A stretch of 64,000 bases of DNA, from the NCBI GenBank assembly GCA_902728285.1, contig CACVBU010000979.1, positions 356,802-420,801 of the forward strand, given 5' to 3'. Made by a program: the position numbers and the translations under genes. Of the stretch, positions 8,516 to 61,652 are shown one piece after another. Origin of the DNA: Clytia hemisphaerica (lineage: Eukaryota > Cnidaria > Hydrozoa > Leptothecata > Clytiidae). How positions within the stretch are numbered: the stretch's first letter is position 1; each line of letters starts with the position of its first letter. Under the pieces are notes generated by a model that did no database searches, had not been told where the DNA came from, and saw only the letters and a list, made by a program, of their open reading frames with translations.

Positions 8516-9925
8516 ATTTGAGGTTTTAATTTCGACTCTGTTGATGAAAAACTAATTTCTCTCAACTGACGGACTTCGTACCCTCGTAGCACTACTCAAT
8601 GTGGGTACAGTGAAATTGCGAACTAGCCTTTGATCGGGATAATGTATTTATTTTGATCCGATATTGCAGGCTACTACTTGGTTCCGCACTAACATTGCCG
8701 TGCTCTTAAAAGGTCCATTCGCTAACCGCGCTGGACCAAAAACATATGATATTTGATAGCAAACAAAAAGGCTTTAGAGAAAAAGAACACGACTCGATAA
8801 TATCCCGATTGTAAAACTAGAATTTTTTTGCTATTGTTTTAGTACAAACTCGGTCTCTATTTTAACAAATCAGCTTGTGCAGCACTTTTTTGCCTGCAAC
8901 CGACTTTGGGTGATACCCGGCCCTCGCCAGCTTCGCTGGCTCGCGAGGGCTGAGGGTTTCCTGGCTAACCGTGTACTATCATATATATGAGATAAAAATT
9001 TACCCAAAGAAGGGTAAAGGGGGGACCTACTATGCCTAAAGAAGGCTGCAGTTAAGCTATGGGGCCTATCCATACATGACTGGAGACCATTTCAGGCAAC
9101 TCTGACACAAGAGGGAAATCGCCCTATAAATATAGGGAATGTGAAGGGGACCAAAAGGAAAAGTAGGCAAAAAAAGGTGATAAAGTCAAAAAAACCCTGA
9201 CCTACACTACTACCGTGAATAGCACAGGTCAAAATCATATATTGACGCTGTGCCGACGAATCGAGATTCTATTCAGCGCGCAATCAACGAAGACAAAAGT
9301 AACCATGACGACCATCCAAGATCTTGGATGAGGCACAAAGTTGATATTTTTATTCCCGTCGTTGAAAACACAACTTACAAAAAGTCATCAATGCTTTGTA
9401 AAAAGAGTCAGTGATAGAGAATCATAACATAAAGTCTGTCTATTATTTCGATTCAATCAAAGTGACATTTCCATAATTGAAAGTTTAGTAATTACTGTTA
9501 TACATTTGGGGATCATATAAAAGATTTCTTTCGAAATAAACTCATTTCAATTACACTTGGAGGTTTCTGGGGAATTTGTAAATCGTAAACTGCATACTCA
9601 TAGCAGTCTGCTAGACATTAATATGGTAATATTTGCTCTTCATCTTTGATATTTTGTACAGTGATTAGATTGACACATGCGCGATAAAATTTCTATTATT
9701 GGTCTTCAGAGGTTAATATATTTTTTGAAAACTTAACCTCTGATACTCAGGGTACTACACTACACTAACAAAATAAACATATAAGTTTCGTATTAAATAT
9801 CAATATATTTATGTTAAACTGAATATAGACAGCCTCAATCATACCGACAAGAGAGAAAAGGGGCTAAAGGAGTCTGTGTACAGACTACGCGGAGGTGGTA
9901 AATGCCACGCCTACTTCTTTCTTAT
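8516..9925. other. Gene-less stretch with two short palindromes
   Basis: A hairpin at 8921-8949 pairs CCCTCGCCAGC with GCTGG-TCGCGAGGG around TTC. A 16-bp perfect palindrome CCCTATAAATATAGGG spans 9123-9138. No gene was recognised; the minus ORF at 8870-9073 overlaps the hairpin and shows no coding signal. A motif CTCTGATACTCAGGGTA near 9736-9752 has a near copy at about 60160-60176. Confidence 0.4.
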
Positions 9926-34151: not shown

Positions 34152-36205
34152 TTGTATATCAGAATACATCTAAGCATGTATTGAAATTTGGCGAGGAACT
34201 TATTTTGACGAAAGCAGAAACTTTTCTTGATTTGATGCAAGAAGTAATATTGGAGAATTAAAAAATTTTGGAAATTAACTTTGCCAAAATTAATTCTCTT
34301 TAAAGGTAGTGTACTCTAAACTTAATAAATGAGTTTTTCAAAGAAAACTGCTTGTTTGGCAATGGTCCCAATAGCATACCGAAGTGGTTCTAAAAATAGA
34401 CATCAAAATTACTGTTTGTCCGAGTTTTTTAATCCCATCATCCTTTGCAAGACAATTGCTTTTGCAAGTCAATTACATTTATTGACAATACAAAAGTAAT
34501 AACTTGCACGCATTACGAATCAAAATGAAAAGGATTGTGGTATTGAATTTCGGTCAAATGTTAAAAGTAATGATTATGACGTTTGCATAGCGGTGTGCTT
34601 TTTGAGAGTCTTTCTTGTGACTCTTTTTCTGACGCAGCTTTTAAACTCTTGTCACACAATACTGGACCATTTCTTTGGCCTTGTCCCTTTAATAAAATGA
34701 AGTTTCGCTTTTTTTTTTTTTTTTGCTTGTTTTTTTGTAATACCGAGTAATAAGAGCAATAAATCATCTTCTTTTGAATAGTGATAGGGAAATATGTTTA
34801 CGTCATTTATAAACAATTGGCGTTTTTTACAGATGGAAAAGCCATAAGTACACCATTATGATGATGTCACATGAGCCATGAGATAAACACGAGTGAATTC
34901 CAAAGTCCTTTGTCTATGGTAGAAGTTTGATGTTTATATTTCTATCATCGAATTGTTGACAAAAGCTTTCTTTTATAAGCAATTATAATGTTTTATAAAG
35001 TTTCGTCCCTAGAATTCAGTTTTTACTTTGTATCCGAATTTTTTGGCTGAATTTTTTCTTTCTTATTACCATGTTGCCATCACATAATATGAAACCAAGG
35101 TTTGCTTTCATAAAGGAATCATATACGTTGTAACTAATTATGAGACCATTTTTCTTATAACAACCAACCATTATTCCTTCCTCTATGTTTAACGTTTTAA
35201 TGCGAAAAAAAGTACTGCCTTTTCCTCCTTCAAAAATATATTTGAGTCGAAACAATAATACCTGTGTATCGAGAAAAAGGTAGCACATAATATACAATTT
35301 AAAGGTTATTTTGAATTTTTGAAAATTGGGCAACATCATTTATGCATTAATTGGAAATACACACTTTGATATGCCATAGTTTAGGTTTTTTGGCAAAAAT
35401 TACCGAGATTTGGGACGAAATAAAGGCCGAAAAATGGGTCCAGTTTGGTCAACGTGTGCAGGTGACAAAAGTTCTGCATCAGCAAAATATACCACTGAAG
35501 ATGAAAAAGGTATTGAAATATTTTAACTGTTTGAAATTGTAACTATTACAATCCAAAGCTTTTGCACTGGAATTGAGGACTATACGTTGAAATTACCTGG
35601 ATAATGTGAGAATTTTGTTACTAGGGTTGTTTGCTCCGATTTTCGTGTTTCGTCTCAGCCTTTTTTGGCTTTAAACTCTAATGTAACATTATTTTTAGTA
35701 AAGGCTTTGTAGGAAAGGTAATAAGGGTGTAAACACACTATAGAAGTCTTTTCATCCTTGTCCTTGTGTATCCCAGGCTTTGTTAATTTCGCTTAGCGAA
35801 AGTATTACGATCAGCGTTCGTGGGTCGCGGGTCGGAAAATTTTTTTGCGAAATCGAAAGTAAAGTATCGGTGGACTAACTCTCTTAAATATTTTGTAATT
35901 GTAAAGTATCGGTGGACTAACTCTCTTAAATATTTAGTGATTTTTTAATATGGGGCGCCATTATGTGAAAATAATATTGTAAGAACGGCGCCTTAAAAGC
36001 GATAGAAAGCAAAGGTAAAAGCAGTTTTAACTGGTTTCTAACTGTCTGAAGAAGCCCGAAGAGAAGTCCAAGTTGTAAGTACTTTGTATCTTTTTGTCTG
36101 TAGGAAAATAGCATTCATAGCTGTGAGGTTATTTTCTGTGTTTTAGCTATATTTTGCTTCTCAGATCCATCCAGTTTAATTATTGGACTGGTTCTGTTTT
36201 AGAAG
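34152..36205. other. Gene-less stretch with one short tandem duplication
   Basis: A 42-bp tandem duplication (AAAGTATCGGTGGACTAACT... starting at 35861 and 35903) is present. ORFs 35016-35339, 35351-35542 and 35926-36114 have no recognisable domain. A poly-T run is at about 34707-34724. Confidence 0.35.
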
Positions 36206-36356
36206 TTGTTTTTTTTTATTTTTGCCCTTCAGATTTATCTGAATCTGATTGAGGCAGCTTTTTTTTCGCCCTTCAGATTTATGCACTACGGGCCACTGAA
36301 TCTGATTGAGGCACCCCGTGGCCAGGGCAGGTTGTCATCCTGTGCCTGCGACCGTA

Positions 36357-36505
36357 CAAGCTGCATTGTCAGCTCTTACAAACCAAAGCTGCATTGTCAG
36401 CTCGATTACAAACCAAAGCTGCGCTGTCAGCTCTTACAAGTCAACTCAAAGCTGCGCTGTCAGCTCTTACAAACCAAAGCTGCGCTGTCAGCTCTTACAA
36501 ATATC
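36357..36505 (+). repeat. 28-bp minisatellite at the Helentron left end
   Basis: Five copies of a unit containing AAAGCTGCGCTGTCAGCTCT (some with CATT for CGCT), separated by TTACAAACC or variants. A related duplicated GCCCTTCAGATTTAT...GAATCTGATTGAGGCA lies just upstream at about 36225-36315. Confidence 0.85.
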
Positions 36506-36514
36506 TAATTGCTG

Positions 36515-36522
36515 TATATAAG
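36515..36522 (+). promoter_or_regulatory. TATA box of the Helentron
   Basis: TATATAAG lies 41 bp before the first ATG (36563) and just after the minisatellite, giving room for a start site near 36546. Position and consensus fit a core promoter; activity is inference. Confidence 0.5.
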
Positions 36523-36562
36523 TTCATAATAATTTTGTAGTGCTAATTTTTAAAGTGTAAAA

Positions 36563-36987
36563 ATGATATCCATTGAGTCATATCGTTCACGTATAGGATG
36601 TTTTGCTTTTACAGCTCAGAGAAATGTTAAAGGTATTTCTAAATCTATTGTTTTTGGTTCAGAACTTTCCAATGATGCTTTTTCTAAACTATTGAGACCA
36701 GTTCGCTTTGTAGCACTTTTAACAATCCTTTTTTTTTTTTTGCAATTCCAAAATCATACGAGATAACGTTTTATGAAACACCACTGGATTTTTTGCATCT
36801 TTCAAAAAATGGTATATTTGTTAGATATCCCAATGTGACGCATAATTTAGGAGATCCAAATCTTACTTTTCTTAAAGTTAATTACACACTTTTATTATCA
36901 GGAGATATAGAACTCAATCCAGGTCCAAACACTGTAGAAATTAAAAGTGTGCAAGGGTCTTTTCATCAGGGAAATTTGGTTTGGTGA
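36563..36987 (+). CDS. Helentron N-terminal leader ending in a 2A (StopGo) peptide; frameshifted
   Basis: The first frame starts at ATG 36563 (MISIESYRSRIGCF) and runs into a poly-T run at about 36729-36742. The reading then continues coherently in another frame (AIPKSYEITFYETPLDF) to SGDIELNPGP at 36901-36927, a match to the DxExNPGP motif preceded by the usual Leu-rich stretch. In 2A peptides the ribosome skips the bond between the last Gly and Pro, so the leader would be released from the downstream protease-Rep-helicase (family knowledge; known in CR1-type LINEs and some viruses). The frame then ends at 36987 and the protease frame takes over near 36975. Function of the leader unknown. 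Confidence 0.7.
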
Positions 36988-38383
36988 GACTGCAGGCATA
37001 CAATGTTCGTCAAATTGTTTTTTTGCTATTTGTTATGCGCAACTTAGAAAATTATCATTGTGGAAGACTCATGATTTGGATTACGTTTTACATCAAGGTG
37101 ATCTGAATTTCAAAAAACTTGGCATCACTGGGCAGTCCCCTTATATTGAAGAGTTTTCAAAAACAATTGAAATAGGAAATAGTACTTGTACACTAGATTT
37201 CAATATTTTTGAAGGTTACTTTGTGACCGGAGATAATATTTCAGTAAATTTTATCAGTGAAGAAATCCTTATGCAGCACTCTGGTGCAGTTTTAGTAATT
37301 TCTGGTAATTGTTTAGGTGTGATGCACTACAACAAAAAATATTTTCTTTTTGATTCACACAGTAGAGACTCAACAGGACGTCAAGTTCCTGGAGATGTTG
37401 GCAAGTCAGTACTTTTGGAATTTCACCATGTAAATGAAATCAAGCAGCACATAAGATCTGAATACAACGCAAATTTATTTAACATTATATATCTGAAAAC
37501 TGCCTTTCAAGAAGTAGAAAATACTAAAAATGTTATTTTGAGGGAAGTATCACGCCGTCAAAAAAATGCTTCACACAAAAGATCATATGAACAAATAAAA
37601 GGTACTGAAAAGCATGAAAAGAAAAATAAAGTTAAGAGACAATTCCGCAAACAAAATAAAGGTTCTGAAAAACATGAACAAGAAAAAGAAAAAAAACGTC
37701 TTTCATGGCAACAAATGAAAGGGTCTGAAAAACATAAAGAAAGAACAGAAAAGAAACGTTTATCATATCAACAAAATAAAGGGTCAGAAAAACATGAACA
37801 GGAAAAAGAAAAGAGACGCAAGGCTTACAAAGACAAAAAAAACAAACCAGGGAAAAGAGTTGAAAACTTTAAACAGAAAAAACAAGAGGGCCCTTCCTAC
37901 ATCTGTGTAATGTGTAACCGCTGTATGTTTAAAAAATCTGTGTTTGGTTTTGATGAACAAAAGTTCTCATTGATCAACTTTGAAGAAATAGAAAATTTTA
38001 ATCCTGTAACCTCGTTTGATGGTAATTTCTACGTATGCACAACCTGTCATAGAAAATTAATGAAGGGAGAAATCCCATGCCAGTCTGTTACTAACAAGCT
38101 TCAAATTTTTGATCTCCCAGATAATCTAAATGATATACGAAAACTGGAAAGAATTTTAGTAGCTCAAAGAATTTTATTTTCTAAAGTCATGATCATGCGT
38201 AAAGGTGAATTCCCCAAATTGCAAGGTGCAATATGCAATGTTCCTATTGAAACACCAGGTGTATGTAAAGTACTTCCTAGAGGAAGTGATAGTAGTGGTG
38301 TAATAAATGTTGAATTAAAAAGAAAAAATATGCTACAAAAACCCTGTTATTTCGCAGCAAGTAAGACGACAAAAAGTTTTTGA
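36947..38383 (+). CDS. Helentron cysteine protease and DUF6570-like region
   Basis: True coding in this frame starts near 36975, after the 2A frame. Residues GIQCSSNCFFAICYAQ (Cys codon at 37004) and YFLFDSHSRD (about 37343-37369, with His) match the herpesvirus-tegument/OTU-like deubiquitinase-type cysteine protease found in Helentron proteins. Next come four Lys/Glu-rich repeats of about 22 residues (KGSEKHEQEKEKKRLS-type, about 37600-37860) and then a Cys-rich part (YICVMCNRCMF, YVCTTCHRKL) that fits the DUF6570 zinc-binding N-terminal region of Helitron proteins. The frame runs into a stop at 38383, but the sequence continues in the next frame from about 38335, at a run of A. Confidence 0.75.
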   Translation: MCKGLFIREIWFGETAGIQCSSNCFFAICYAQLRKLSLWKTHDLDYVLHQGDLNFKKLGITGQSPYIEEFSKTIEIGNSTCTLDFNIFEGYFVTGDNISVNFISEEILMQHSGAVLVISGNCLGVMHYNKKYFLFDSHSRDSTGRQVPGDVGKSVLLEFHHVNEIKQHIRSEYNANLFNIIYLKTAFQEVENTKNVILREVSRRQKNASHKRSYEQIKGTEKHEKKNKVKRQFRKQNKGSEKHEQEKEKKRLSWQQMKGSEKHKERTEKKRLSYQQNKGSEKHEQEKEKRRKAYKDKKNKPGKRVENFKQKKQEGPSYICVMCNRCMFKKSVFGFDEQKFSLINFEEIENFNPVTSFDGNFYVCTTCHRKLMKGEIPCQSVTNKLQIFDLPDNLNDIRKLERILVAQRILFSKVMIMRKGEFPKLQGAICNVPIETPGVCKVLPRGSDSSGVINVELKRKNMLQKPCYFAASKTTKSF

Positions 38384-38387
38384 AACT

Positions 38388-41060
38388 TTGGACTTTTTAG
38401 TGAATAATAATCCTTTGTATCATGATATAAATATTGATATGTCAATAATTGACCAAATGAATAATGATGAATATGTTGAAAGGGTTTTATCAAATAATGA
38501 TTCCATATCAAACGCTTCTTCCAATGATATAAGATTTGTTGATGATACAACAGTTACCTTAATCAAGCCTTTTGAAGAGCAATTAGAGAATGAATTTGAT
38601 TCTGATGATCCACTCAGTGCGTATCGGACACCAACATGTGAAACAGTCATTGTATCAGAAGTGCCAAACATTATTTTAGATGATGAAAATGCAATTTTAG
38701 CTCCGGGTGAAGGTCAAACCCCCAATTCATTAACTCAAGATGAATTTTGTGAAGAGTTAGCCCATCCTCATCTTTTTCCTACTGGGAAATTTGGATATAA
38801 CGTAGAGCGAGATATAAAATTGTCGCCAACAAAGTACTTTAATCAGCGTCTTTTAAATTACACTCAAAAGTTTGCTTCGGATTCAGATTACATTTTTTTT
38901 GCTCACAAAACATTACTACAGCTTAATCTTAGAAGTAAAATCAATATCGCAATGAGAATTTCAAATTCCAACTTGACCGCGGGACTATTAGCAAATAATT
39001 TTAATGATACAATTCAAAATTGCGTAGCATCTGATAATGCATACAAGTTTATGAGTACTATAAAAGGAACCCCTGCATACTGGCAACATATGTTATCTGA
39101 TGTTCTTGCAATGGTTAAACAACTTGGTGTCCCAACATACTTTATGACTCTCTCTTGTGCAGATTTACGGTGGGAGGAATTTGTTACCATTATCAGACAA
39201 TTAAGCGGGGATGCTGATACTGATCATGAACTTCTTGATTACCAATCTAGATGTGCCCTACTTAATAGCAATCCTATTGTGCTTGTGCGTCAATATCAAT
39301 ATAGAAAAGAGTTGTTTTTCAAAGAGATAATAATGGATGGCCAACTTGGAAAAATTACATACTATGCTCTCAGAGTAGAATTTACTTTCAGGGGTAGTCC
39401 ACATGATCATTGTTTGCTTTGGGCAAAAGATGTCCCAAAACTTGAAGACGGAAAAGAAAAGTATATTGAACACATAGATAGTGTTATTTCTGCTAATGTT
39501 CCTGATAGAGAAGAAAGTCCTGAGTTATGGAATTTAGTCACTAAATATCAAATACACTCCCATTCAAGAACGTGTAGTAAATATCGCAAAAATGAATGCC
39601 GATTTCAATTTGGAAAACTTTTTTGCAAGCGTACTATTTTGTCTGAACCGCTTCCCGAAGGGTTACCTGAAACTGAAAAACATGATATTTTAGTTGCTAG
39701 AAATAATGTGATACAAACTGTTCAAGAATTTATAGATACAAATTTGCATCCTAAAAAGAGAAACATTTTGGATCCTGATAAGCCTGAGTATATTGAAATT
39801 GGATCTATTGATACAATTTTGAATTCTTTAGGGTTAAATTATGAAACGTATGAATATTACTTATCAATCTCACCAGACAAAGATCAGCATTTGTTTCTAA
39901 AACGTGACCCATATTCTTGTTTTGTCAACAATTATTTTGCAGAAGGCCTCCTAGCATGGGAGGCCAATATCGATATCCAACCAGTGTTTAATGCATACAA
40001 GGCAGTTACATACATGTGTGCCTATTTTTCAAAAAGTGAAGATAAGTGTTCAACTGCAATGCAAGAAGCATTAAAACAGGCCAAAGATTCAAATGACAGT
40101 CAGTTTGAGAAAATGTCTAAAATTGCCAAAGTTTACAACTCTAATAGAGAATGCTCAATCCAGGAAGCAGTTTACTTAACAATGCCTGAACTGTGGCTTA
40201 GAAAATGCTTTCCTGCTATTTCATTCGTTAACACTAACTTACCTGATCAAAGGTACAGAATTTTCAAGTCAAAAGAAGAAATTGAGGAATTGCCTGAGGA
40301 TTCTGATGATCTTTTCAAACGAAATATGTTAAACAGATATATTGACCGCCCAAACACAGGGCAATTCAATACTATGTGTTATGCCACATTCTGTGCAAAC
40401 TATACATTAGACACAAAAAAAAATACAAATGATGAAAATGATTGGCAGCCTACTGTACTAGATGATTCAACAAGTGCAGTGAATCATCAAGAACCCCAAA
40501 CACTTCCAAAATCAGCCAAATTACTCAACAGTAAGGAAAAACTTAAGCTTCGTAAAGTTCCAAAAGTTTTGAGGTACTACACTCCTAACAAAAACAAACA
40601 TCCAGAAAAATTTTCCCACCATATTCTAATGTTGTTTTACCCATTTAGATCAGAAGAGAATGATTTGAAACTTGATGGCTCGTATGTGTTGAAGCTCAAT
40701 TTAGATGAAGTCAATGCAGTTGTTAACGAGAACAAGCAAATTTTTGAACCTGATGGTCATCTTGTTGATTTAGTACTTCAAAACTATCGCAATGACCTTA
40801 TGCATAATCAAGATGCCTTTGCTCAACAAGAAAATGATGAAGTACAAGACCTAATGAGCAACTCATCAGACAGTGAAAATGATGATGAAAGTCATGATAT
40901 TGAACAAAATTTTGCACCATTTACTCAAACAGTTCATAGCTTGCAAACTGATGACCAAATCAATACCCATATAAGATCTTTAAATTCTAAGCAAAGAGAT
41001 ATTTTTGATATAGTACTAAATTGGGGAAAAAATGTATGTGCAAAATTCCAAGTCCAATAA
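38388..41060 (+). CDS. Helentron HUH Rep (rolling-circle endonuclease) domain
   Basis: 890 codons; the coherent reading starts a little upstream, at about 38336 (NPVISQQVRRQKVFETLDF). The two-His metal site is GSPHDHCLLW (PHDH at 39399-39410) and the tyrosine motif is YMCAYFSKSEDKC (about 40009-40047), with two Tyr five positions apart as in Helitron Y2 Reps. These carry out the strand cleavage and transfer of rolling-circle transposition (family knowledge). A linker of about 300 residues follows, acidic near the end (SNSSDSENDDESHD). The frame breaks at a run of six A (about 41026-41031) and the helicase continues in another frame from 41032. Confidence 0.85.
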   Translation: MDFLVNNNPLYHDINIDMSIIDQMNNDEYVERVLSNNDSISNASSNDIRFVDDTTVTLIKPFEEQLENEFDSDDPLSAYRTPTCETVIVSEVPNIILDDENAILAPGEGQTPNSLTQDEFCEELAHPHLFPTGKFGYNVERDIKLSPTKYFNQRLLNYTQKFASDSDYIFFAHKTLLQLNLRSKINIAMRISNSNLTAGLLANNFNDTIQNCVASDNAYKFMSTIKGTPAYWQHMLSDVLAMVKQLGVPTYFMTLSCADLRWEEFVTIIRQLSGDADTDHELLDYQSRCALLNSNPIVLVRQYQYRKELFFKEIIMDGQLGKITYYALRVEFTFRGSPHDHCLLWAKDVPKLEDGKEKYIEHIDSVISANVPDREESPELWNLVTKYQIHSHSRTCSKYRKNECRFQFGKLFCKRTILSEPLPEGLPETEKHDILVARNNVIQTVQEFIDTNLHPKKRNILDPDKPEYIEIGSIDTILNSLGLNYETYEYYLSISPDKDQHLFLKRDPYSCFVNNYFAEGLLAWEANIDIQPVFNAYKAVTYMCAYFSKSEDKCSTAMQEALKQAKDSNDSQFEKMSKIAKVYNSNRECSIQEAVYLTMPELWLRKCFPAISFVNTNLPDQRYRIFKSKEEIEELPEDSDDLFKRNMLNRYIDRPNTGQFNTMCYATFCANYTLDTKKNTNDENDWQPTVLDDSTSAVNHQEPQTLPKSAKLLNSKEKLKLRKVPKVLRYYTPNKNKHPEKFSHHILMLFYPFRSEENDLKLDGSYVLKLNLDEVNAVVNENKQIFEPDGHLVDLVLQNYRNDLMHNQDAFAQQENDEVQDLMSNSSDSENDDESHDIEQNFAPFTQTVHSLQTDDQINTHIRSLNSKQRDIFDIVLNWGKNVCAKFQVQ

Positions 41061-42195
41061 TCCTGTACTACTAGAACCATTGAGAATATTTTTAACAGGT
41101 GGTGCGGGCGTAGGAAAATCTCACTTAATTAAATGTATTTACAATTGTTTGTCAAAAGTCCTAGCATATAAAAGTGATGAGCTAGAAAAGCCACGTATTA
41201 TTAAATTGGCCCCAACTGGTATAGCAGCTATCAATATATCTGGCACCACAGTACACACAGGATTGAGTATTCCAGTTGGAAAATTCAGAAATATGGCTGA
41301 CAAACAAAGGACTGCCATTAGAAATAAATTACATCACGTAAAGTTGATAATAATTGATGAAATATCTATGATTTCGTCGCAACAGCTTTTGAACATCCAT
41401 ACAAGATTATGTGAAATTTTTGGTGTAAATGACAACACACCATTTGCAGGGAAAAGTATCATTGTTTGTGGAGACCTCTTTCAATTACCTCCAATTTTTC
41501 AAAGTCCAGTATTTTCAACTGAGGGACCTATTATTGGTGCATTCAAATTATGGCACCTATTCAAACTAGCTGAATTAGATGAGATTATGCGTCAAAAGGA
41601 TGACTCTGACTTCATTGATCTCTTGAACAATGTAAGAGTAGGTGAATTGAATAGTAATGATGAAAGTATGATTAAATCTAGACTGATAACACGAGAACAC
41701 CCTGATTATCCAATAGAATCATTGCATTTGTTTGCAGAAAATGCTTCAGTCCATCTTCACAATATTCAAAGATTAGATACTCTGCCCTCGGAAACAATAA
41801 ATGTAGAAGCTATGGACGTTTATCCAAGGGATTTTACTGAATCTCAAATCACCAAGGTTAAAAACCTGCCACTTAACGATACAGGTGGCTTATCAGTTCT
41901 ATTTGATTTGAAAATATGTGCAAGAGTAATGCTAATTAGTAATATTGATATAGAGGATAGGTTGATCAATGGTCAACTTGGAACCGTCACTGAGGTAAAA
42001 TTCAGAAACAATAAAGTAGAGCTAATTTATGTTAAACTAGACGATAAGACGGCTGGAATAAAAGCTCAAAGTAAAGACCAATATGCTAAGGCCACTGAAA
42101 CTGTTCCCATTGAAAAGAGTGAGGTAAATTTTCCCTTTGACAAAAAAAACCCCATACACTTCACCTATCATTTCTCGGACACAATTTCCTCTTAA
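41032..42195 (+). CDS. Helentron PIF1-type helicase, N-terminal part
   Basis: 387 codons, SF1B helicase motifs in order: Walker A GGAGVGKSH (about 41098-41124), motif Ia-like KLAPTGIAAINISGTTVH, Walker B IIIDEISM (41347-41370), and GDLFQLPPIF (about 41473). The helicase unwinds donor DNA during transposition. Motifs V and VI lie in the next frame; the break is at a run of eight A near 42141. No other internal stop. Confidence 0.85.
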   Translation: MYVQNSKSNNPVLLEPLRIFLTGGAGVGKSHLIKCIYNCLSKVLAYKSDELEKPRIIKLAPTGIAAINISGTTVHTGLSIPVGKFRNMADKQRTAIRNKLHHVKLIIIDEISMISSQQLLNIHTRLCEIFGVNDNTPFAGKSIIVCGDLFQLPPIFQSPVFSTEGPIIGAFKLWHLFKLAELDEIMRQKDDSDFIDLLNNVRVGELNSNDESMIKSRLITREHPDYPIESLHLFAENASVHLHNIQRLDTLPSETINVEAMDVYPRDFTESQITKVKNLPLNDTGGLSVLFDLKICARVMLISNIDIEDRLINGQLGTVTEVKFRNNKVELIYVKLDDKTAGIKAQSKDQYAKATETVPIEKSEVNFPFDKKNPIHFTYHFSDTISS

Positions 42196-43108
42196 GCTAG
42201 CTTATGCTTGTACAGTGCACAAAGTTCAAGGATTGACTTTGGATTCAGTAGTCGTTAGTTTTGACCTTGCAAGGCAAAGAAAGTTCAATGCTGGTCAAAT
42301 GTATGTTGCAATGAGCAGAGTGAAAAATTTAAATGGTTTGTACTTTACTGGTCAATATCGACGTAGTGCTTTTGTCTGTAGTGATAAAGTTAGTGAAGAA
42401 TACACACGATTGCGTCAGAACAAAGTTGAAAGAGTTGCAGATATTATGAGGTGCAGTTCTAATTTAAATGTTTGCCTATTGAATGTAAGATCTTTAAAAC
42501 GACATGCAGTTGATATTCAAAAGGACAGATTTTTGTATGAAAATGATTTGTTATGTCTGACAGAGACACAGATGAGTTATGAGCATTCTGAGGAAGACAA
42601 ACAAAGTATTCATGAAAAACTTCCTTATTATATTCTTAGTCATAATATTGACCAGCATAAATTCAACAGTGTTACTGTCTGTCATTCTCCTTCTTTTATT
42701 GACATTGATGAGTATGATCATTCATCATGCTTTTCTCTTGTAAAATTTAGAAAAGCTGAATTTACTGAAAAGGGATTTTGTGTTTTGGTTCTCTATAAAA
42801 GTTCAAGAATTCAACGTGATGTGTTCTGTTACAATCTTGCTCAATTTATTGAAAGATACACAATTGATATCATTTTAGGAGACTTCAACATGGACGGCTT
42901 TGAAATGGAGCATGATCAATTGTTGGCTGACATTCTCCAAGATTATGATTTAGTTCCGAACTTTCCAACACATATCGATGGGAAAATGCTTGATCAAATT
43001 TGGACACATAAGGAATTGGTGCACGAGTATGGTATTGAAGTTATTCGTAAATGTGTGAACTTATCCGATCATGATGGAATCAAATTATCGCTGACTTTGC
43101 TAGCTTAG
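42137..43108 (+). CDS. Helentron helicase C-terminus and AP-type endonuclease
   Basis: The reading begins coherently at SRTQFPLKLAYACTVHKVQG (about 42165), with helicase motifs V/VI (YACTVHKVQGLTLD, YVAMSRVKNL). From about 42460 an endonuclease/exonuclease/phosphatase fold follows: LNVRSLKRHAVDI, LLCLTETQ (catalytic Glu), GDFNMDGF (42878-42901) and SDHDGIKLSL (SDH at 43064-43072). This nuclease is related to those of CR1/RTE-type LINEs and is the hallmark of Helentrons. The stop is at 43106-43108, shortly before the presumed element end. Confidence 0.85.
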   Translation: MTKKTPYTSPIISRTQFPLKLAYACTVHKVQGLTLDSVVVSFDLARQRKFNAGQMYVAMSRVKNLNGLYFTGQYRRSAFVCSDKVSEEYTRLRQNKVERVADIMRCSSNLNVCLLNVRSLKRHAVDIQKDRFLYENDLLCLTETQMSYEHSEEDKQSIHEKLPYYILSHNIDQHKFNSVTVCHSPSFIDIDEYDHSSCFSLVKFRKAEFTEKGFCVLVLYKSSRIQRDVFCYNLAQFIERYTIDIILGDFNMDGFEMEHDQLLADILQDYDLVPNFPTHIDGKMLDQIWTHKELVHEYGIEVIRKCVNLSDHDGIKLSLTLLA

Positions 43109-43127
43109 AATACCCGTCAGAGGCGAT

Positions 43128-43138
43128 TCCCGGCGGGA
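43128..43138. repeat. Short palindrome at the presumed Helentron right end
   Basis: TCCCGGCGGGA is palindromic around its central base. TCCCGACGGGA, the same design, occurs at 53070-53080, and a related CCCGGTGGG is near 19016. A short terminal hairpin is usual near Helitron-type 3' ends; assignment is inference. Confidence 0.35.
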
Positions 43139-46004
43139 CGAGGGGGGGGGGTTGGAAACTGGGGTGGTGGATGATCTCAACTTTCTGATGATTAGTTTTG
43201 AGTGGTCAAAAGATACATTTGCTTATGTTGTCATAGGTGCTTCTTTATGAACAGTTTGAATTGATCAAAGGAAATTTTTTGTGATAGACTGAGTAAACCA
43301 GGAATACTCTTTAAAGCAATGATGTTATCGAAAATCTGTTAATATGATATCAGTACATGTTTGATTCTGGATAAAATTAACTTTGTAATTAAGGATTGAA
43401 GCTTAACTCTGTTGGAAATATGCAATTAAGGTCATCCCACCACCCCGTCCATTCTTATGTAAGTTTTCTGACGTTTAAAGACTATTCTTAAAAGACATTT
43501 CTGCATTAACCAAAAGGAGGGCTCTGTTGAGTTTGACATTTGCAGATGAAGTTGGGGAGGGTCTGAGAAATGGGTCAAATATGTGTGAGTGTCTTTTATG
43601 GATGGTCTATGGTAGAAAAAATCTATAGACAAAGGACAATTAGTTTAAAGATGCCTTTCATTAATTCATTTTTGATTACTATCTCGTCAGGAAACTTACA
43701 TACCTATGGGTATGGCATTTAATGTATCATTTTATTTATTGTATTATTTATTCCTATTTTTTATATTATTTATTCCTATTTTTTATATTTATCATTTTTC
43801 TTCTGTTTTTCATAATTATTAGATTTTTTGAAATTATTTTATTCAGAACAAAGTAATATTTCTACCATTTTTTAATAGGCTTTTGTTAATTGTTTTATTA
43901 TTTTCTTGTACTCTTTTTGTTATTCATTTGCCTACTCAAAAATCAAAAAGACTGTCACAGAGTTAAAAAATAGACGATATGGAAAAATATGGAATGAAAA
44001 AATATGGAAGTACATTGCAAGTGAATTGATTCATCTATATATGTATGCATTTTGGTTGATATTATAAGGATAATTATTGAAACGTTGAATAGTGGTATAA
44101 GTGGATATATATTTCTATTTTGGAATTGATGTAATCGCTTATCCTAATGCAGCTTGAATTCATTGAATCTCAAAATATCCTAAATCGTCGTCATTTTCAG
44201 TCTTTATTAACAAAGAGTCGAATGGTTTCGAAAATTTTCATTACAATCACCAACATTCGATACAATCGCCAACATCGATACTGCAAAATATGCGCTTAAA
44301 GTCATTGTACCATATCATCGTTTCATCCGATTTCCACAATATGCTGTATTTGCTCATTGGAAACATAAAATTTTATGATTTTCAGCATTTCTATAGCAAA
44401 TCAACTGTCGCGCTCAGCCACCAACCGACCATTGATAATACAAAAATAACAATTCTTATCGCGATTTCCATGATTCCACTGTGACTTCTTCGACGTACGT
44501 ATCCTGACTTGACCTCAATTTTCGAAATGTCTGGTGATTTGTTCCTGTTGGATAAAAAAACGTTTTGGTATGTACACTTTGTATGGTTTGATTACTCGAA
44601 ATGTGACATTTATGTAAACGAAACACTGAAAACTAATTTTTATTATTTTGGAAGCCGGAAATCCACCGGATGTGAAAAAAAGCCAAATTTGCACAATACT
44701 TGTAAATTTGTAAATTGCTAGCTATTTTCTATGAGCTATGTACTATCGAACTTTTGGAATTACGAATACTTGGAAATATAATTTTTAGATTCATGAAATC
44801 CAAACTCAAGTTTTTGCCCCTGTACCAACCTGTATTTCCCCTGTTCATTAAAAAACGAAAGCACATTTTCGGCCAGAATGAAAGAAAACTTTTCTACGAA
44901 TTGCTTGGAATCTCGAATCTTGTCTTTTCAAGTTCAAAATATTGGATATTTTCGACCAGAAATGATGTAAAATTTTACCTTGCCTTTCGTTCTAAACTCA
45001 CTCAAAATAGGTTTATCTTATTAATTTTCCGCATTCCTCGTCAAGTTTTAATTGTGAGCCCATTGTTCTCCAAGGATTTCAATGTTCTTTTCTTCTTCGT
45101 CTTATTTAAAGCGAAATTTTCGACTTCTAGTCGTCTTGTTTATGTTACTATAGGACGCCATGTCTGGCACCATGGGGGTACCATCAGTAAACAATGTATA
45201 TTCTGGGATTTGAATATGCCGGGAACGGGGTTTCAAGATTTTTAAGATATTTAAGATATTGTCTTTTCCAGGCCTTGTATACATTATTGATGGATGGTCG
45301 GTCGCTATCAGTAAACATAAAAGCTAATAATACACTGGGAACGAGGTTGAATCTTTCTGCGAGTTCTAACAAAATTTTAACACCGTGGCCAGATGTTGAA
45401 TGTTGTCGAGGGAAAATTCTTGAAGGTATGAAGATATCTTCTCGGGACATCCCATTATTCAATAAATTCGTGAAAAAGCTGGAATTTTCATGCACTGTTT
45501 GCTGTTTGCCAAAAATAACTTTTACCATCTAAAAATCTGGAAAGGAAAGAAGTGATTTTAAAAGCTCTGTCTGTCTGTCTGTTATTTTCTTACATCATAT
45601 ATGGTTACATTTTGTTACATCGCTTCCTTCCATATATAGAAACGACACACAATGAACTATGTAGTAACACGTCCGTAACCAAAAAATAACTTTCCCTTCA
45701 AAAAAGTAAAGAGTGTTCCAAAAATGCTGGAAGTTTTGTCTGTCTTAGACATGTTTTGTAGTAAAACGTTCATATGTTAAAAGAAACCAAGAAAAAAAGC
45801 TTTTTCCTCTAACTGCCCTAACTGACAAAATGTTCGATTCTTTCTTGGATATCATCTTGCAGTAGCACTAAATAACCCAAACCCTAATTCCGTCTAAAAA
45901 GAAGGAAGTGGTTGAGAACGTGGAATGCTTTTTCTGTCTTTTCTGCTAGTACACCCAGCAGTTGCAAAACATTCATTCCAACGTTATACGGATGTTTGTC
46001 GCGT
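43139..46004. other. Gene-less stretch after the Helentron
   Basis: Starts with a run of ten G. The overlapping ORFs around 44500-45530 on both strands (the longest are 176 codons at 44715 and 114 codons at 45184 minus) show no recognisable domain, no clear splice sites and mutual overlap, so no gene is called. Confidence 0.35.
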
Positions 46005-59043: not shown

Positions 59044-61652
59044 GTGATATTTTTATTGTCTAATTTTTAAAATATTTTTCTTTTAGTATTTTTTTCTCCC
59101 CATCATCACAGTATTTCACATCACACGGCGTTGTATATATTTGAATTTTATTTCTTTAAATAGTCTTATCATTTGTCAACAGAAAATTATTCTGGATTTG
59201 TTTTTTTAACCCTGGACCTGACTTAAGTGTGTCTTGTTTGTCCCAGGTTACTTATAGGTACCAAAATTTAACTCTAAATTTATTTTCAACAATTTTTTCA
59301 TTCAATATGTGTTGTACTAGGCTAACCTTTACGTCCATTTAGAAATAATTCAAAACAAAAGTTATTAGGAGTATGTTTTTGTCAGTAAAATATCTTTTTG
59401 ACACTCTTGAATTTTATTCACAAATTTTTATTTGTTTGTTTTCTTTTTGTCAAATTTTTATGTTGCAATTGCTTTGTCTTAAAAGTAGAAATTATTTTAG
59501 CAAAAACTATTATTTCATACTTTGTAAGAATTTTTTTTGATAACGAAAGAAATTCTTAGCTTATTTTACAAAAAAAAATTTCTGAAAAATTTATTTTCCT
59601 GCCAAATTTTCCAACTCACTTAACCTTGTTAATGGGATAGAATTTTCTGAAGTGATTGAGGCGTTGTGACTCTGGACCGAAGGAGAATATTGAACTTTTG
59701 AAGAAATTGCTTGACGGGTGTAATCGACTTTTAAAGAAAAAAGTGTTTTAATCACAGAAAAGTTAATTTTCTCACTCGACAATCTACCAACAAGAAAAAT
59801 TCGAGTAACTGAGGGCGTGATTTAGCCTACAATTGGCAAGGGGAATCGCGCTTCGAATAACACCGAGAGTGTTTTTGCCTGACTTGGATAAGCAGGGGTA
59901 AAAAATGCATGAATCAACCTCTAAATTTAAATCAACCTACTTTGTTATTCAATAATTGACATTGATGATATCGATTTGGATGCTTCACTTCAAGGACTAG
60001 ACCTTTCAAAATAATTGTCAGTGTATTAAGGGGCCATCCACATACTTCACCATAATAGTACGTACGTACGCACTGAACATATTTCATACACATATTTACC
60101 GTGTGAGTATCACACCTCGAATAAATTCGTAGTTAATATTTTCGCTTTAAAAACTTGGCTTCTGATACTCAGGGTAATACATATTCCCTGACTAAAATAC
60201 TTTCTTCATTCACCCCACCCCCCCCCCCCCCTTCGCAAAATTTGCCACTAGTCTTTTGTTATTTTGCCACTAGTTCCGGGTTATCTCGGGTGCTTCCGTA
60301 TAAGAGATTACGTCATGAATATCATATCATGAATGGCGGGAACTTAGGAATGACGTCATCTTAGCGCGAAAAAATAAATACAAATTTTTATCGAAAAGGC
60401 ACTCCATATTCTCTAAGCTCTAAAGATGGCGGCAGAAAAACCAGAAAAAATGTGAAAAACAATATCCAATCAGTCAAACGAAACAGAATTTTGGCTGTAT
60501 ATGGTGAGTATTCATGTGTAAATATTGTATTAACCCTTAAGATAGATGTAATGACTGCATTTAGTCTAGGCAAATAAGGGATCTTCGACAAAAAACTTTT
60601 GGGCCGATAAGGGGGTGGGGGGTCCAACTACATGCCGATAAAAAATCAAGTATTGAGACGAAAATCCTTTCAGCCAATTTCTTTCTGATTTCGTCCACAA
60701 ACTCCACTGAAAGCATATGAATTCACTTGCTTTCACCTTTGCGCGCAAATTCGCAGAACTAGCTTTGATAAACTGACGTGACCAACTTTTTGATATGTTT
60801 CTTACTTAATTTGAGGGTGCTGATTCCAAATTTGAATGTTTTTTTTTTGGGGGGGGGGGTGGTCTTCAAAATCAAAAAAGACCTTTACCACGTGATAGAA
60901 CTCTTCAAACTGAGCAAAAAAATGTATTATATCAAAGTCTCAACTTTTCTAGATCAAAAGTTATGGACAATTTTATTTTTATGGTCAAAATTTGATTGAA
61001 AATAGGCACTTCAGTCACGTGACTAAAAACTGTCGCGAAAATTTAGCGGGGAAGCGTTTTTTTATAAAGACGGGGTTTTCGATTTTTCAAAAAATAGTAT
61101 ACATTCTTCTATCAAAATATGGCAGGGGTTTTTACCAGCTTTTCATAAAACAAATGATTGTGTATAAAGCTCAGAGGACTGCCTGAGTTTCTCCCGTGTG
61201 TGCCGAATTTATTGTTTTTCCTAGTAAAATTCTACAGAGCTTTGAAATTCTTTTTTAGTCATAACTTTTTATAAACTCAATTTTTAAATATAGCACACCC
61301 TAAGTATTATAGAACAAAAACTTAACTTTCCAAAAACTATAAACACTTTATATCCAGTGTATTAGAGACCATGCCAAAATTCAATATTGTGATTTTCAAA
61401 TTTCCAACATGACCCCCGTCCCAAAATCACTTTCGATTTTGCACGGGTTTTTGAGATTTCGGATCAAGAAGCAGCAGGAGAAGAAGAAGTGTGGAAGCTG
61501 TAACACATGGAAATATCCATTCCTATTTTAATGAATAGAAGAGAAGAAGGTAAGCATAAATTTGGAACAGCTTGCACTTGTCTTTGTGGCCCATATATTT
61601 AGTCTTGATGTCTGATGCTAAAGAAAACTAGATGTTAAAATATCCCTGTCGC
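59044..61652. other. Gene-less stretch
   Basis: A C-run is at about 60218-60230 and a G-run at about 60849-60860. ORFs 60155-60364, 60388-60627 and 60778-60999 cross or neighbour these runs and carry no domain. Nothing else recognised. Confidence 0.35.

Follow-up and report, generated by a model that had tools for sequence, protein, structure and literature searches.

A Helentron, that is, an endonuclease-bearing Helitron, lies at 35783..45141 (+) of a stretch of DNA from the hydrozoan Clytia hemisphaerica (contig CACVBU010000979.1). The window, as the 64,000 nucleotides analysed are called here, corresponds to C678:356802-420801 in the source genome, which comprises 417 Mb in 951 contigs. 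The element is about 9.36 kb long, its limits having been set by comparison with two further copies (C790 and C232), and it has transposed recently. It very probably makes two proteins by means of a StopGo (2A) sequence. Translation of the main frame of about 2,200 codons would begin with a leader of 70-120 residues, at the end of which the StopGo/2A sequence would cause the ribosome to skip a single Gly-Pro bond and so release the leader. Translation would then continue into a second protein made of a VTD (tegument-like deubiquitinase) domain, a zinc/DUF6570 region, an HUH Rep, a PIF1 helicase and an AP endonuclease. StopGo has mostly been treated as an RNA-virus device. Here it is conserved within a lineage of DNA transposons, beside a deubiquitinase of the herpesvirus tegument kind, and it would let rolling-circle transposons make two proteins from one frame.

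The StopGo octamer and its distribution

The octamer DIELNPGP is encoded at 36904..36927 (+), with its Gly-Pro pair at 36922-36927 and the residues TLLLSG directly upstream. Nowhere else in the six frames of the 64-kb window does [VIL]ExNPGP occur, and there is one other bare NPGP, at 59208. The sequence agrees with the StopGo consensus, (D/G/C/N)(V/I)ExNPGP preceded by a known upstream class. In the parts of a recent survey covered here, Leu-rich upstream motifs 2 and 6 accompany Asp at position 12 (p12) and Ser at p15, and motifs 1, 3, 4 and 6 were all active in assays that did not include motif 2 (Li et al., 2026; PMC12846837). Judged by sequence, the octamer and the Leu-rich residues ahead of it match a StopGo class, the representative of which proved active in that work.

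Could such a motif have arisen here by chance? A profile search returned 123 proteins, 120 of which, together with earlier matches, made up a set of 134; one of these, P0134, is a fish protein. The protease profile matched 123 of the set, and 116 of them retain the N-terminal end of the domain. An octamer of the form [DGCN][VIL]ExNPGP stands directly ahead of the protease in 87 of these 116 homologues, and the octamer of the window is therefore not a chance occurrence; the check for a 2A at the same place in relatives, proposed with the original prediction, came out in its favor. Among the 87, Gly occupies p11 in 83 and Asp p12 in 85, while p15 is Ser in 73 and Leu in nine. Sorted by eye, the other 29 comprise nine with a damaged octamer, 13 with a Met near the same boundary and seven that are fragments or unclear (P0009, P0041, P0062, P0077, P0103, P0104 and P0118). 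Once short rows are dropped and the rest clustered at 80%, the octamer is found in 43 of 63, next to 13 Met types, five damaged octamers and two fragments. A divergent VTD protein of 803 residues, P0127, carries NDIEKNPGP after a 217-residue N-terminus devoid of a strong hydrophobic stretch.

The scissile Pro lies 4-15 residues ahead of a GSFHQ anchor (77 proteins measured), and the Met of the 13 2A-less proteins lies 8-20 residues ahead of it. The body protein thus seems, from these spacings, to start at about the same place via either route, StopGo or Met. In a quick tree of 61 representatives the two types are intermingled, and the well-supported branches require the Met label to have changed at least four times; the tree carries long-branch warnings and gives these changes no direction. 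A graft of the leader onto a Met-start ancestor was considered for the L010 family, in which a Met follows the 2A. It was dropped, as a 17-row quick body tree, also with a long-branch warning, needs one change of 2A state and makes loss equally simple.

Intact relatives are present in the same genome. Among 150 Rep candidates scored out of 441, 23 have open frames of at least 2,000 codons, and 20 of those 23 were examined. The VTD profile matches 18 of the 20, the exceptions being L009 and L027. Leader and octamer occur in 11 (L010-L014, L017, L021, L022, L025, L026 and L028), within open frames of 2,026-2,349 residues; because L010-L013 are near-copies, the eleven loci represent about eight families by similarity. 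The octamer is in frame at ten of them, and L026 likewise bears it, with the leader start in another frame. Together with L029, the near-identical copy on C790, these loci provide the DxExNPGP that the original prediction expected in related intact copies. Pfam models were run on eight of the 18 VTD-bearing loci (six with 2A and two without), and DUF6570, Rep and PIF1 fall in one frame in all eight. VTD exceeds its Pfam cut-off in seven; the eighth, L014, has no Pfam VTD although the dedicated profile matches it.

Leader and protease

At least 55 residues precede the octamer in 72 of the 87 octamer-bearing homologues, and 61 of these 72 leaders open with a YRxxIGxF-like start. The ratio of nonsynonymous to synonymous change (dN/dS) in the leader lies within 0.14-0.30 for eight of the ten pairs in one set (two being saturated) and 0.18-0.27 in 3 of 3 pairs of another, or 11 of 13 overall; among the near-copies L010-L013, differences are too few for an estimate. 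Judging by these ratios, the leader is under purifying selection, and an unstudied protein is thereby brought to light. It is very improbable that the NPGP segment has been kept for a reason other than StopGo, such as the structure of the leader or a signal in the DNA. Synonymous divergence (dS) is lower in the leader than in the body in some pairs (0.54 against 2.84 between L029 and L012), which makes a constraint at the nucleotide level possible; but leader codons do change synonymously while the octamer holds, a Met is often found near the same boundary in 2A-less proteins, and the motif fits StopGo classes that have been assayed.

2A leaders are also known from CR1-like long interspersed nuclear elements (LINEs), and an unrelated LINE inserted ahead of the transposon frame might in principle have supplied both leader and 2A. 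The chance of this is close to nil, and the idea was rejected: the leader lies within the mapped ends of the element and is in frame with the protease and the rest of the body in intact copies. Moreover, a search with the leader (P0008 residues 1-112, E up to 10, among 140 candidate proteins of 461-1466 residues) found five proteins, query included, and all five bear the tegument protease. The leader can nevertheless accompany other partners. At L014:1720-8502 (-), the protease has lost its catalytic Cys and DxH, while leader and octamer are kept in an open frame of 2,261 codons. In P0129 (1324 residues), leader and DIESNPGP are followed by a USP domain (PF00443, E 3.1e-23) in place of VTD, and then by DUF6570 and Rep. 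The dead protease of the one and the USP domain of the other show the leader-2A unit to be independent of an active VTD.

A 19-residue stretch with a mean hydropathy of at least 1.6 is found in 69 of the 72 leaders of 55 residues or more. It ends no more than 19 residues from the octamer in 62 of the 72, and 51-52 residues ahead of it in eight, the family of the window included. A membrane-directed leader is likely on this sequence evidence, though not proved. Because of this stretch, transposition enzymes still joined to the leader would be anchored in a membrane, and StopGo would set them free. A released leader with the stretch near the octamer would look like a small tail-anchored protein; the leader of the window's family has the stretch 58 residues ahead of its new end. 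The same 69 leaders are compatible with a partial switch, as in the NLR proteins of sea urchins: most chains would be split, and an unsplit fraction, still fused to its hydrophobic leader, would go to the membrane, giving the enzymes two locations. N-terminal hydrophobic 2A sequences do behave so in cells, according to the covered parts of Roulston et al. (2016; PMC4981915). This variant is nonetheless unlikely, as the upstream classes assayed in the parts of PMC12846837 consulted separated at about 93% or more. Release of the leader remains the preferred reading.

The protease behind the octamer, at 36928..37552 (+), is by sequence and model of the VTD type. Pfam PF04843 matches it with E 2.5e-6. 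A profile search returned the VTD crystal structure 8add (E 1.7e-18), along with herpesvirus tegument proteases. The AlphaFold model of the domain has a pLDDT (predicted local distance difference test) of 87.3, and Foldseek gave it three matches at E up to 0.001, namely 8add (6.9e-12) and two chains of M48USP (9e-9). The catalytic residues, a Cys (37004) and a D-x-H (Asp 37352, His 37358), are present in the tegument fold of the window domain; they are invariant in 33 chosen aligned rows (A3) and lost in L014. The original prediction had called the protease "OTU/tegument-type". The second half of that label holds, and the first was discarded, since PF02338 (OTU) matched none of the window pieces at E up to 1; the Cys, His and Asp of the putative triad that it envisaged are present in the sequence. 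By analogy with its zebrafish relatives, for which cleavage of ubiquitin chains has been shown (Erven et al., 2022; PMC9741609, in the parts covered), the window VTD is predicted to cleave such chains.

Several observations weigh against this account, and they are gathered here. Peptide release at the octamer, insertion into a membrane and the function of the leader are inferred from sequence. The profile query (A2) included leaders, so that the 87 of 116 is perhaps biased upward, and the proteins counted are not independent. Eight of the 13 Met proteins have records that simply begin at that Met, which a gene caller may have picked; it is internal in the other five. The dN/dS estimates draw on 50-82 synonymous sites, with some dS near saturation and 2 of the 13 pairs without a value. 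The hydrophobic stretch stands out from shuffled versions of the leader, no more than 5 of 100 of which equal it, in only 38 of 73 leaders. The endonuclease model exceeds its cut-off in none of the eight intact frames submitted to Pfam, lying below it in five and being unlisted in three; short endonuclease motifs occur in most long frames, are partial in L017 and L021, and were sought without success in L022 and L025. Finally, 7 of the 18 VTD-bearing loci lack the octamer (L015, L016, L018-L020, L023 and L024), and a three-frame search that began 1.8 kb upstream of their open frames found neither NPGP nor a leader-like motif. L016 has a Met just ahead of the protease, and L015 begins inside it. 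In L018, L019, L020, L023 and L024, a Leu/Asn-repeat N-terminus (MRAPC...LLNLLNLLN) replaces the 2A leader, with a Met near the boundary.

Architecture, copies and mosaic structure

The interval 36563..43108, first taken for the Helentron itself, is its coding region; the element extends beyond it on both sides, and the coding region of the window copy is not a single frame. The order of parts along the + strand is leader, DIELNPGP, tegument-type protease, zinc/DUF6570, Rep, PIF1 helicase and AP endonuclease, the prediction having rightly placed StopGo motif, zinc-rich region, HUH Rep, PIF1 helicase and AP nuclease on one strand in this succession. The leader up to NPG occupies 36563..36924 (+), starting with the ATG at 36563. 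It has 119 residues in L029, and in the window a poly-T run marks its passage from frame 2 to frame 1. Behind the VTD domain come four 60-bp repeats coding for K/E-rich units (37590..37829, +), a CxxC zinc region with DUF6570 (37889..38450, +, with a frameshift inside), the Helitron_like_N domain of the HUH Rep (PF14214, 38835..39419, +, E 4e-28), the PIF1-type helicase (PF05970, 41077..42380, +, E 4.6e-30, also with a frameshift inside) and the C-terminal AP-type endonuclease (Exo_endo_phos, PF03372, 42482..43105, +). The last of these scores 26.2 bits against a cut-off of 24.5 (E 7.9e-6), carries the motifs GDFNMD and SDHD, which are also present in L029, and ends at the stop codon 43106-43108. 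The HxH of the Rep, at about 39399, reads HDH in the window, L028 and L029, against HIH, HAH or HVH in the relatives looked at. In the clade of L017, L021, L022 and L025, the endonuclease behind the helicase is weak or undetected (L022 being judged by motif only) despite the 2A leader.

In L029, all seven parts lie in one frame of 2,180 codons counted from the leader Met. The window copy has five frame shifts: the leader start and the protease are read in frame 2, with the 2A stretch between them in frame 1, and a further three shifts lie downstream. Such changes across the coding region could mean that the copy is a dead relic whose frame has gone out of use, a possible but doubtful reading. 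Over 7,658 aligned bp (window 35783-43430), the window and L029 differ by 1 mismatch and 7 gaps. Of the seven indels, five lie within 6 nt of a run of at least four identical nucleotides, compared with 25% of random positions. This excess makes assembly error a real alternative to decay, and the broken frame may be such an error. In addition, P0001, a EukProt protein with a transcript-style name, matches the open C790 copy at 100% identity. A search of the genome with P0001 gave at least 138 matches, among them C790 with an open frame of 2,183 codons, C232 at 99% identity with 2,203 codons, and the window copy, which is interrupted by stops. The window leader is identical to that of P0001 at 57 of 58 and 81 of 81 aligned residues.

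The 5' terminus of the element (35783..35801, +) contains the palindrome TTTCGC-TTA-GCGAAA, common, with small differences, to the window, L026, L028, L029 and L032. The first letters of the element are TTAATTTCGC. A subterminal inverted repeat, AATTTCGCTT at 35785-35794 (+), has its exact 10-bp inverted match at 45109..45118 (+), and a terminal hairpin, CGACT-TCT-AGTCG, follows at 45121..45133 (+), 8 nt from the 3' end. Subterminal inverted repeats and a 3' palindrome, as expected of Helentron ends, are thus both present. Two tandem repeats precede the leader, a 42-bp duplication in the 5' untranslated region (35859..35942, +) and a 28-bp array of 4.9 copies (36358..36501, +). The match to C790 begins at 35783 and that to C232 at 35774, the flanks of C232 and the window both ending in CTTTG while that of C790 differs. 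On the 3' side, ...CTTGTTT is common to all three up to 45141, beyond which they diverge. Since their flanks otherwise differ, one nearly identical element has inserted separately at each site, hence the recent transposition. A T is present at both junctions in the copies read, which is compatible with insertion between T and T, and the first and last T of the interval may belong to the host. An earlier 3' end at about 44,694, where the window diverges from L026, was abandoned because C790 and C232 match the window further, to 45,141. A search for terminal inverted repeats made without prior knowledge of the ends covered only sequence short of the true 3' end and gave nothing above shuffles. 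Elsewhere, window 9443-9755 is a repeat that recurs, at 94% identity, in the DNA beside the C790 copy, G000:C774:8390-9298 holds a leader/VTD match within an open frame of 3,104 codons, and no relatives were found in the viral and genome contig collections (viral_contigs, genome_contigs).

The 5' part of some of these elements may not share the history of the remainder. Along window 35778-44712, identity with L028 is about 0.5-0.8, and rises near 37,830-37,890, at or just past the end of the 60-bp repeat array, to 0.94-1.0 for the rest of L028 compared. Similarly, dS between L029 and L028 is 0.070 in the nearly identical body, compared with 1.20 in the leader and 1.02 in the VTD. On this sequence comparison, the window and L028 are mosaic. 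L012 and L014 agree at 80/119 positions in the leader, 60/195 in the VTD region and 919/1890 in the rest. DNA similarity was compared from -800 to +1300 around the leader ATG. Between L029 and L012 it is detectable only from -3 to +392 (80% over 399 bp), with the octamer ending at +360. Between L029 and L014 it reaches +538 (76%), and between L012 and L014 it spans -242 to +364, with further repeat matches. L029 shares more than 1.2 kb with L026 or L028, and none was detected in this interval with L017.

The similarity of L029 and L012, confined to leader and 2A, suggests an exchange of a leader-2A cassette. More generally, these sequences are most simply read as products of an exchange of 5' modules that are joined at the 2A and at the repeats; alternatively, synonymous sites in the leader may be constrained. 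Tentatively, and with rather less confidence than the main proposal deserves, leader and 2A may be envisaged as a self-contained cassette traded between families of rolling-circle transposons in one genome, the deubiquitinase module being exchanged separately. The StopGo site would then be a joint that lets any protease and any Rep body sit behind the same membrane-directed leader, which would act on the host or at the transposition site as a protein of its own. With the natural variants described (intact, damaged, Met-start, dead protease, USP for VTD), the contribution of each part can be tested directly.

Comparison with known systems

A 2A after a leader is found in CR1-like and other non-LTR (long terminal repeat) retrotransposons. 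These are likewise mobile elements, but they form another class, equipped with a reverse transcriptase.

The comparisons that follow concern the covered parts of each paper. VTD Helentrons have already been published: VTD domains are described in Helentrons of vertebrates, insects, cnidarians and molluscs, those of zebrafish being active (Erven et al., 2022; PMC9741609). These elements resemble the present one in combining a tegument-like deubiquitinase with a C-terminal AP endonuclease in a rolling-circle transposon, and they have cnidarian members. In contrast, NPGP, StopGo and skipping are absent from the main text, and the parts covered describe no conserved leader. The StopGo leader is the apparently new part, although priority is not certain: none was found on Helentrons in the literature searched on Helitron/Helentron and 2A, and a survey of 2A sequences in eukaryotes by Rao et al. 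(2025), which may list such proteins, lies outside that search.

The Helentrons with an OTU protease or RPA described by Thomas et al. (2014; PMC4067079) have in common with this one the Rep, the PIF1 helicase, the C-terminal AP endonuclease, the subterminal inverted repeats, the 3' palindrome and the TT preference. Here, however, the protease is a VTD, placed in the same frame behind a 2A leader, and the inverted repeat is 10 bp long and 23 nt from the 3' end, compared with 12-15 bp and 38-60 nt in the mite families of that study. The Leu-rich motifs 2 and 6 of Li et al. (2026; PMC12846837) share the LLLLSG-like hexamer, the Asp at p12 and the frequent Ser at p15, but that work surveys viral sequences, "Helitron" being absent from its text and "retrotransposon" occurring once. 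Similar in layout are the 2A signals of sea urchin NLR proteins, in which a short hydrophobic N-terminal segment also closes in a StopGo octamer (Roulston et al., 2016; PMC4981915). Those, however, are 26-residue leaders of host genes, whereas the leaders described here have 70-120 residues, open with a YRxxIGxF-like start and belong to a DNA transposon.

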